Source of the DNA: Halorubrum sp. JWXQ-INN 858
GTDB taxonomy: Archaea; Halobacteriota; Halobacteria; Halobacteriales; Haloferacaceae
Reading direction: 5' to 3'
DNA: 64,000 bases
NCBI RefSeq assembly: GCF_009806985.1
Contig: NZ_WUAX01000001.1
Location: 1 to 64,000 of the forward strand
A program made the translations under genes and the position numbers. Below the pieces are notes generated by a model. It was given only the letters and a program-made list of their open reading frames with translations. It did no database searches and had not been told where the DNA came from. Numbering within the stretch: the stretch's first letter is position 1; every line of letters begins with the position of its first letter. Positions 55,792-60,524 of this stretch are shown here, piece after piece.

Positions 55792-56256
55792 ATGACCGTC
55801 ATCGTCGGGACGTCCGCGGCGGACGAACAGGCCGGTCCGATCCGGGAAGCCCGCCGTCTCGCCGCGGGGCTCGGTGAACCGCTGCACGTCGTTCACGTCT
55901 ACTCGGAAGCGGAGTTCGAGACCGCGACGACGGGCGAGGACGGTGGGGCCCGTGCCTTCGGGGAGGTCAGGGCGGACGCCGAGGCCGTCGCGGAGGCCGC
56001 CCTCCGGGCCGCGCTGGGCGATGCGAGCGAAGACGGCGGCGTGTTTGAGCCGCCGGTCGAAGCGGTCGGGCTCGTCGGCGACCCCGCGACCGAGCTGGTC
56101 GAACACGCGACACACGCGGACGCGAGCCTGCTCGTGGTCGGCGGTCGGCGACGGTCGCCGGTCGGGAAGGCGATCTTCGGCAGCATCACGCAGGACGTCC
56201 TCTTCGAGGCCGACTGTCCGGTCGTCGCCTGCTTCGACGCCGTCGAGGACGACTGA
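55792..56256 (+). CDS. Universal stress protein (UspA family)
   Basis: A 154-residue UspA-fold protein with a nucleotide-binding loop GGRRRSPVGKAIFGSITQDV near residues 122-141 (G-x2-G-x9-G-S/T pattern), followed by ADCPVVAC. The N-terminal motif MTVIVGTSAADEQAGP resembles the usual start. It precedes the transposon-like insertion at 56303. Confidence 0.93.
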   Translation: MTVIVGTSAADEQAGPIREARRLAAGLGEPLHVVHVYSEAEFETATTGEDGGARAFGEVRADAEAVAEAALRAALGDASEDGGVFEPPVEAVGLVGDPATELVEHATHADASLLVVGGRRRSPVGKAIFGSITQDVLFEADCPVVACFDAVEDD

Positions 56257-56302: not shown

Positions 56303-56310
56303 GCCGAAAC
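56303..56310. repeat. Target-site duplication, left copy
   Basis: GCCGAAAC directly flanks the left terminal inverted repeat of the element 56311-57933. It is identical to 57934-57941. Confidence 0.85.
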
Positions 56311-56378
56311 GGCTCTGTTGAAATCCTGTTATTCAACCATGTTTGCGTCTGAAACAGCGGGTCACTGAACGGTGCTAA

Positions 56379-56627
56379 TTAATCAAGGCGGCGTTGCCGC
56401 TCCGCCCAGAACATAAGTTCGTCTCGCATTTCTTCAGGTACATCTCCAAAGAGACAGCCAAGACGGTTTCCAAGGTTTTGCCAGCTTAGCTTATTGAATG
56501 TCCCTTCTGAATATGGACCCCCCTCCAATGCGTCTTCCCACCCCTGATGAAAGGTACGTTCGCGGCTACTATCGAGTGGCTTCCGCTTATCCGCCTCGTA
56601 CATCAAAATGGAATCTGATGACACCAT
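56379..56627 (-). CDS. Small protein of the transposon-like element
   Basis: An 82-residue protein with low-GC codon usage. The segment FHQGWEDALEGGPYSEGTFNKL and then WQNLGNRLGCLFGDVPEEM resembles short hypothetical proteins that I have seen in several haloarchaea, with no assigned function. A TTTATTA box on the minus strand (around 56651-56657) is positioned for a leaderless start at 56627. A later in-frame ATG (MYEADKRKP) is possible. Confidence 0.6.
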   Translation of the reverse strand: MVSSDSILMYEADKRKPLDSSRERTFHQGWEDALEGGPYSEGTFNKLSWQNLGNRLGCLFGDVPEEMRDELMFWAERQRRLD

Positions 56628-56775
56628 GCGTGGTATATCATGTTAGTTCATAATAAAACCTCATCTGGACCTACTGGTTCGGCGTATGTAGTTCTGAAAC
56701 TACGCTCAAAACCTGACCAATACGTGGACTTCCTGTACAGAAGAGATATATGTGCCTGTGTCTACAATTTACAAA

Positions 56776-57753
56776 GTGAAGCGTCGAGAATATATCATCT
56801 TAGGAGGTGCCTCTGTGAGTGCTGCTGTTTCTGGCTGTTTGGGATCACTGGGGCCAGGTAGACGTGATAAACCGTGGGTCACCTTGAGTTTGTTTTCATC
56901 TGATATTATACGAAAATTCCATAGCGAGCAGTATCTCGAGATACACCCGTCGCAGGCAAACGTAGAGGGACGGAACTTACCTCCTGAAAATCAAGAACAT
57001 CACATCAGCGTAGATGTCACTGTATTAGCACAGTACGGCGTGGATTTAGAGAACCTATCAGTAGAACCGACCCAAGAGCGTGAACGACCTCCCGACTACT
57101 CCCCAGAAGTGACCCGATGGACGGGGAGGCTCCCCGAAGAACCCAACACGGACATCGACACAGTAGAGATGGCTGATGGGATGATCGATCTCGTTCTTAC
57201 CACGCCGGAAAATATAACGCAAGCAGATCCAATCGGGTTGAATTTGACAGGGTTCGACTGTATCGATGTCGAAGCAATGACTACGGCCAGTTACGACGTT
57301 CAATCGTCCGATGACCATGTGAATCCCTCTCAGCATGAATTCCAAGTTTTCGATCCGCAGCAACTTCCACCCACGTTATACCCAAGAGGCATGATGGAAA
57401 ACAGTGATACACAGGTACTCACTATTGATTGGCTCGTGCCGGAAACTGAGGAAGTAGTGATGGAAATCGATACGTCTACGATGGATGAATACGGAACGAT
57501 CCGAGGGCCAGTAATTGAAGAGAAAGTGCGTGGTGGAGTCTTAAAGACAGCAACGATCAATGGTTCGACGGTTTCGATGAGATTGCTGCCGGATTCGGAC
57601 AGCGATTTCGCCTCGGTTCAGGTCCGTCTCAATGGTGTAGAAATACGCAACACAGCAGAAGGGCTATTATACCAAATGACTGTCGAAGGCGACACTCATG
57701 AGACAGTAGAGACGAAACCGTTTGACATTGAAACGGAACCAACACCAGAATGA
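56776..57753 (+). CDS. Tat-exported lipoprotein of unknown function
   Basis: A 325-residue protein starting at a GTG. The N-terminus VKRREYIILGGASVSAAVSG has a twin-arginine motif and a lipobox ending at the cysteine of VSGC, so it is predicted to be exported through Tat and lipid-anchored. The body has no known domain. Codon usage is AT-rich, as is the surrounding element. A GATATA box at 56744-56750 is centred about 28 nt before this GTG, while an upstream GTG at 56752 would be too close to the box. Confidence 0.7.
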   Translation: MKRREYIILGGASVSAAVSGCLGSLGPGRRDKPWVTLSLFSSDIIRKFHSEQYLEIHPSQANVEGRNLPPENQEHHISVDVTVLAQYGVDLENLSVEPTQERERPPDYSPEVTRWTGRLPEEPNTDIDTVEMADGMIDLVLTTPENITQADPIGLNLTGFDCIDVEAMTTASYDVQSSDDHVNPSQHEFQVFDPQQLPPTLYPRGMMENSDTQVLTIDWLVPETEEVVMEIDTSTMDEYGTIRGPVIEEKVRGGVLKTATINGSTVSMRLLPDSDSDFASVQVRLNGVEIRNTAEGLLYQMTVEGDTHETVETKPFDIETEPTPE

Positions 57754-57933
57754 GAACGTTAGGTAGCCGCCTTATTCCGATGAGTGTGATAGGAATTGCC
57801 TGCTGACTACACCCTCCGTATCTTGCACACCGCTACGCAAGAGTCAGATGTCTCGGGATTTATGCTGCAGATCTCCTATACTGACCGAAACCGAGTCAGG
57901 TTATATCCGGCTACGAAGGATCTCAACAGAGCC

Positions 57934-57941
57934 GCCGAAAC
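57934..57941. repeat. Target-site duplication, right copy
   Basis: GCCGAAAC immediately right of the terminal inverted repeat. The reconstituted target CGAAACCGTTTCG is itself a near-perfect inverted repeat, possibly the former terminator of the convergent genes. Confidence 0.85.
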
Positions 57942-57995: not shown

Positions 57996-58151
57996 TCAGC
58001 GCCGCTCCCCGAGCGCGATGTCGAGCGCGTCTTGATAGCGCCCGTCGTCGATCGCGAGCCGTGCACGCTCCGCGACGGCCGACGAGACACGACCCGCACG
58101 GTCCAAGTCGTCGACGAGAGCTCGCACGTTTCTGGCTTCCCACTCGGTCAT
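57996..58151 (-). CDS. Short haloarchaeal protein (51 residues)
   Basis: An open frame of 51 codons with an ATG at 58151. The sequence is MTEWEARNVRALVDDLDRAG at the start and ends ALDIALGERR. It is acidic and strongly helical, with host-like GC content, unlike the adjacent insertion. Reading frame length and composition suggest a real gene; no function known. Its terminator region is interrupted by the transposon-like element. Confidence 0.55.
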   Translation of the reverse strand: MTEWEARNVRALVDDLDRAGRVSSAVAERARLAIDDGRYQDALDIALGERR

Positions 58152-58939: not shown

Positions 58940-59010
58940 ACGAACGGAGGGAAACGAACGGAGGGAAACGAACGGAGGGAAACGGACGGAAGGAAACGGA
59001 CGGGAGGAAA
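58940..59010. repeat. 14-bp tandem repeat
   Basis: Four to five copies of AACGAACGGAGGGA and close variants between the NUDIX and CPBP protease genes. Confidence 0.85.
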
Positions 59011-59063
59011 GGACTGCTCACGGGACGGACAACCCTTTGACCGTTCGTTCCCAACGACGACCG

Positions 59064-59996: not shown

Positions 59997-60116
59997 CGGC
60001 TCGGGGCCACGCGGTGACGACGAGGGAAGCGCCCGGCGAGCCGCCCGCACGACGGCCGTTACGACGGACGGATGACGACGCGCGACGGCCGCACGGCTCG
60101 GGGTCGTTGGCGGACT

Positions 60117-60524
60117 GAGGGGAGTAAGCCCCCTTCGGTTCATCCCGACATTCGGCTAAGCGTCCGTGCCGTGGCCGGACTACCTGATGGCACGGACTTG
60201 CACCGGCGAGGATTCGCCGTTCCATCCGTTCCCGCCCGTCGCCCGCGCGGCGGTGCCGCGCGGCCCGGGCGTGGCGTCGGTCGCCACGCGCCCTCGGTGG
60301 GTTAACTCCCTTCCCTTGCGGGTCGGTTCGCGCGTTCGCGGGCGAACCCGTGAACGCCGGCGGCCGCCGACGGCGGCCGCGCGCACCTCATCGGTCGGGG
60401 CGGGGGGTGTCGTTGCTGTTCCAGAGCCAGCCGTCTCCGACTCCGGGCGTGTGCCCGGTCGCCCGTCCGGCCGGTGGGGGGACTTTCCTCATGCGTGTGC
60501 ACGGGAGTCGGGCTCCCTCTGTCC
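60117..60524 (-). ncRNA. rnpB: RNase P RNA
   Basis: The RNA component of RNase P, transcribed from the minus strand. On that strand the sequence has the universal CR-I motif GAGGAAAGTCC (about 60482-60492), the CR-II/III element GGAACAGCAACGACA (about 60410-60424), the P4-forming end and a terminal P1 helix formed by GAGGGAG (60513-60519) with CTCCCCTC (60117-60124). Length (about 408 nt) suits haloarchaea. A TATA-like CCTTATTGG on the minus strand (60548-60556) is about 27 nt before the expected 5' end. Ends are estimated. Confidence 0.85.

Follow-up and report, generated by a model that had tools for sequence, protein, structure and literature searches.

The segment at positions 56311 to 57933 of the 64,000-nucleotide stretch of Halorubrum sp. 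JWXQ-INN 858 analyzed here (the window) is very probably a non-autonomous IS5-type transposon, or mobile insertion cassette (MIC), that has ISHla2-type ends and was moved by a transposase supplied from elsewhere. We describe its anatomy, the family of units bounded by the same kind of end, an autonomous partner that shares both these ends and the duplication length, and a relative in which the corresponding locus lacks the insert. Taken alone, the element is ordinary and of a known kind, the interest lying in the breadth of its family and the diversity of the cargo.

Anatomy of the element

The element is 1623 bp long, and its structure agrees with that described in the initial annotation, i.e., 17-bp terminal inverted repeats matching at 16 of 17 positions, an identical octamer on either side, a low-GC segment of about 1.6 kb with two genes and no transposase (as seen from GC content, the list of open reading frames [ORFs] and Pfam), and convergent flanking genes (Table 1). 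The two repeats were the sole matches in the window at up to three mismatches, with a chance expectation of 0.03. The GC content of the insert was 48% (0.47 to 0.51 inside) versus ca. 0.70 outside and ca. 70% for the genome. Neither the ORF list nor the comparison with the rest of the family revealed a transposase ORF, or a remnant of one, inside the element.

Table 1. Features of the element and its flanks (window positions) and cargo of other end-bounded units (L numbers denote loci)
Feature	Position	Strand	Basis or remark
usp (universal stress protein), flanking host gene, context only	55792..56256	+	Pfam
Left copy of target duplication, 8 bp, GCCGAAAC	56303..56310		Sequence
Left terminal inverted repeat, GGCTCTGTTGAAATCCT	56311..56327	+	End search and comparison with family ends
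82-aa ORF, no known domain	56379..56627	-	ORF list, Pfam, plasmid homologues
Cargo gene, 325-aa Tat-lipoprotein-like protein, GTG start	56776..57753	+	ORF list, homologues, dN/dS
Right terminal inverted repeat, GGCTCTGTTGAGATCCT, 16/17 versus left	57917..57933	-	End search
Right copy of target duplication, GCCGAAAC	57934..57941		Sequence
51-aa flanking ORF, convergent with usp, context only	57996..58151	-	ORF
AbrB-like/PIN pair resembling VapBC	L076		
PemK/MazF-like toxin and MarR-like gene	L034:2453-3505		Own genome, no exact duplication
PAS histidine kinase	L036:2343-3930		Own genome, no exact duplication
Protein with weak HSDR_N match	L032:3076-4391		Own genome, no exact duplication
Bile-acid-symporter-family transporter	L073		

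Shared ends and an autonomous IS5 partner

Autonomous copies with a transposase, which the initial annotation had proposed to look for, were found in Halorubrum lacusprofundi ATCC 49239, where three ISHla2-type units of 1193 bp have the same ends and encode, from 52 bp inside the end onward, a transposase of 273 aa. This protein belongs to the IS5 transposases (NCBIfam NF033579, E value of 7e-66; Pfam DDE_Tnp_1), and RefSeq names it “IS5-like element ISHla2 family transposase.” The left end of our element is identical over 17 bp to the transposase-bearing copies, and the right end matches at 16 of 17 positions. Relatives of this transposase, from 100% down to ca. 40% identity, were present in 44 of the 51 Halorubrum genomes, and those with >90% identity were found on plasmids of many haloarchaeal genera. 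Several autonomous copies with exact 8-bp duplications also carry passengers, such as small membrane proteins and Tat-lipoprotein-like genes.

IS6 elements make 8-bp duplications and have ends starting with a GGC-CTGTTG-like motif, and on this likeness the ends could instead be assigned to a family whose termini look alike, for example, IS6 (IS240) or IS1595 (ISH4), with a transposase of that family having moved the unit. We consider this very unlikely, as an IS5 transposase is found inside exactly the ends of our element. Moreover, the IS6-type units of the genus measure ca. 698 bp and have the ends GGTAGTGTTCAGATAAG, its ISH4-type units measure 1001 to 1003 bp and have the ends CGCTCTTGTG, and no IS240-type domain was detected in the own genome. 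These different ends ruled out the IS6/IS240 and IS1595/ISH4 transposases as partners. A family of 328-aa IS1595-like transposases was also discarded, with no ends of the window type around its genes.

The end itself is widespread. At up to three mismatches it occurred 12 + 13 times in the own genome, versus 0 + 2 for the reversed control. At up to two mismatches it was found in all 51 Halorubrum genomes (controls near zero), and with one mismatch allowed, 78 of 117 genomes of the order, representing 35 of the 48 genera sampled, contained it, with all controls at zero. When convergent end pairs lying 0.2 to 4 kb apart were counted, exact 8-bp duplications flanked 29 of 142 distinct pairs, versus 0 of 38 divergent pairs. 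A larger collection comprised 133 end-bounded units in ca. 82 clusters; 47 of these units had an exact 8-bp duplication and 98 had no transposase. Units with no duplication were taken when no other end lay inside, and therefore some of them may be false pairs. Units of exactly 462 bp with differing small ORFs appeared in three genomes (L068:1501-1962, L155:11374-11835, L165:477-938, and L166:461-922).

Low GC content alone is compatible with any acquired DNA, including a low-GC island that arrived by homologous recombination or plasmid integration and is surrounded by inverted repeats by chance. This explanation is hardly credible, being refuted by the repeat counts compared with the controls, by the 47 sites with exact duplications and by the equivalent units in other species.

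The family ends have two subterminal types, with one of each in 25 of 34 units. At the left of our element, the likeness to other family ends reaches ca. position 56384, with the left 53 to 74 bp being 76 to 87% identical to many ends, and the left subterminal region scored +11.9 bits with a profile built without the element (mean of −21 for the interior). The right subterminal region beyond the 17 bp matched neither type.

The partner with the same ends, the exact duplications of the family and the relative's locus with no insert bear out the DDE-type transposition initially proposed. They also lend good support to the view that the cargo element is non-autonomous and was moved in trans; mobilization in trans itself, and the cut-or-copy step, are what we infer. 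An ISHla2-type transposase would be supplied by another replicon, or by a copy since lost or left unassembled, and would bind both ends of the unit, which would then be excised or copied; strand transfer with an 8-bp stagger at the target would generate the duplication. No intact cognate transposase was found in the own assembly (94% complete), only a relative with 44% identity and an in-frame TGA. Repeats are often lost in genome assembly. The relative in question is a pseudogene of an IS5 transposase (44% identity to the ISHla2 type, one TGA) within a 1472-bp unit in contig 13 of the same genome (L315:364-1835). This unit is flanked by an exact duplication (CTGCGAAA), and its ends, GGCTGTGTTGAATC, differ somewhat from those of the element.

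Cargo genes and related systems

The 325-aa protein has a Tat-lipoprotein-like signal (KRR...SGCLG); a longer version of its ORF begins at 56752, and the GTG start in Table 1 was the one used. The Pfam search gave no match for either gene of the element (none significant for the lipoprotein), and the lipoprotein found no match in PDB, PHROG or NCBIfam. A structure prediction for it, based on two sequences, was of low quality (mean pLDDT of 37), and an internal duplication suspected by eye received no support when tested. Homologues of the 82-aa protein were located on five haloarchaeal plasmids, with 84% identity in Natrarchaeobaculum and 37 to 48% in the others; a tblastn search of the lipoprotein against plasmids gave no match. 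Lipoprotein homologues with 44 to 47% identity were found in four Halorubrum genomes. In two of them, G037 and G038 (H. saccharovorum DSM 1137), the homologues are enclosed by the same ends, the units are flanked by duplications, GATTATTT (exact) and TGTCTGGT/TGTCTAGT, and both units are also devoid of a transposase. Around the homologue of Halorubrum sp. PV6 the right end is recognizable and the left one perhaps degraded, and no recognizable end was found around the gene in the fourth genome (G048). An alignment scan of the genome contigs with the lipoprotein detected H. saccharovorum only. Pairwise dN/dS values were 0.22 to 0.37, with dS near saturation for pairs that include the window copy. 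The lipoprotein gene is under purifying selection, which maintains this cargo, and the protein may have a role at the cell surface.

The passengers of the autonomous copies also fit an alternative origin, namely, a once-autonomous ISHla2-type element with passengers whose transposase gene was deleted before or after insertion, so that it might have moved by itself. This origin is improbable, given that the element holds no transposase remnant, that both other duplication-flanked lipoprotein units have no transposase either and that the gene is missing from 98 of the 133 collected units.

The preferred reading, a cassette mobilized by a transposase encoded elsewhere, places the element close to several known systems. 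The haloarchaeal IS5 elements ISHla2 and ISHxa2 share with it the terminal repeat, the 8-bp duplication and passengers between the ends, but they encode an IS5 transposase and our element does not. A MIC consists of IS ends and a flanking duplication around passenger genes, with no transposase, and this is the structure that we observed. MICs are known in bacteria (for example, PMC3913671). Compared to these bacterial MICs and transporter ISs, the present family is archaeal, has IS5/ISHla2 ends and brings together very many unrelated cargos under one end type, and its mobilization is presumed. Haloarchaeal MITEs (Haloquadratum, Halobacterium) are moved in trans, and ISH2 is a MITE with an ORF (PMC3119063, PMC10264941). 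Like our element, ISH2 and the MITEs are transposase free, and they have only the ends and the duplication length in common with their helper; however, they measure ca. 500 bp at most and nearly all lack coding sequence, and the helper of ISH2 is ISH8, with 10-bp duplications. We rejected the classification of the element as a MITE (ca. 600 bp or less, non-coding) on account of its 1623 bp and of a gene under purifying selection. Haloquadratum MITEs have been reported with no functional helper in the same genome (PMC3119063). The passenger Hlac_3088 of an H. lacusprofundi transposon has been proposed to act at the cell surface, where it could impede the attachment of viruses (PMC10544981). That transposon is probably the ISHla2-type unit L163:491-2294, the passenger of which ends in a PGF-type sorting motif. 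It resembles our element in having a surface-protein passenger, but that protein is not the same one, and the unit encodes a transposase. In the literature searched (subscription papers and ISfinder aside), ISHla2 was unmentioned and the cassette family undescribed.

Cargo was very different among the ca. 82 clusters (Table 1), and further examples include several Tat-lipoprotein-like genes and many membrane proteins of 50 to 130 aa. Among 43 units (transposase free, with 0 or 1 mismatch in the duplication and with one or more ORFs of ≥45 aa), the longest ORF had a predicted membrane segment in 18, versus 3% in shuffles; as the baseline consists of shuffled sequences, we treat an enrichment of surface genes among the cassettes as a lead only. 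At L179:922-2768, a cassette and an ISHla2-type element are joined inside one outer 8-bp duplication, and L167:483-3507 and L271:312-3078 resemble it. Hence, there seem to be compound units, in which adjacent cassettes lie under one outer duplication as if moved together. Cargo swaps between transposase-bearing and transposase-free units amounted almost only to overlaps of composite units, plus one related cargo. At L119:579-1579, an ISH4-like IS1595 element is nested in a cassette, which for this reason falsely appears to bear a transposase.

Passenger cassettes bounded by IS ends are known from individual cases, mostly bacterial. Here, the ends of a single IS5 family appear to enclose dozens of unrelated small cargos across the haloarchaea. 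As a tentative proposal, which we hold to be possible rather than probable, ISHla2-type ends might form a gene-cassette system across haloarchaea, in which one transposase family would serve a large pool of small capsules, which usually hold one or two genes, are rich in membrane, surface and toxin-antitoxin genes and circulate among genomes and genera, possibly exchanging virus-exclusion or envelope traits, with neighbors also moving as compound units. If the units do move in trans, this would be a route of gene exchange overlooked by standard IS annotation, which misses the cassettes because most units have no transposase. Such a system would account for orphan lipoproteins, small membrane proteins and toxin-antitoxin pairs in low-GC pockets, and it would provide a natural vector for haloarchaeal genetics.

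Target site and neighborhood

The exact sequence of the site before insertion would be GCCGAAACCGTTTCG. The initial annotation regarded this target as an inverted repeat. The palindrome is real (CGAAACCGTTTCG, 6-bp arms, shuffle P of ca. 0.012), but it is centered on one border of the octamer that was duplicated, not on the octamer itself. Over the 47 sites with exact duplications, the octamer was 63% A+T, with the pattern R......Y in 35, and a weak symmetric preference was seen beside it (W-T on one side and A-W on the other). Palindromy at these sites was slightly above that of shuffles (mean arm of 3.68 versus 3.20). The further suggestion of terminator targeting found no support in this weak, symmetric, AT-rich preference, because the excess of palindromy is slight and the palindrome in the window lies off the octamer center. 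A transposase that prefers symmetric targets would account for such an excess.

In one relative (G045), surE, usp and nudix follow each other in the same order, and the ca. 460 bp that separate usp from nudix contain no insert. The perfect duplication and the 16/17 match between the ends point weakly to a fairly recent insertion, as first proposed. In the vicinity, about five 14-bp repeats (ACGAACGGAGGGAA) lie directly past the nudix gene (58940 to 59014 of the window), and an archaeal RNase P RNA (RF00373, 93 bits) was detected at 60113 to 60500 on the minus strand, truncated where the searched stretch ends.
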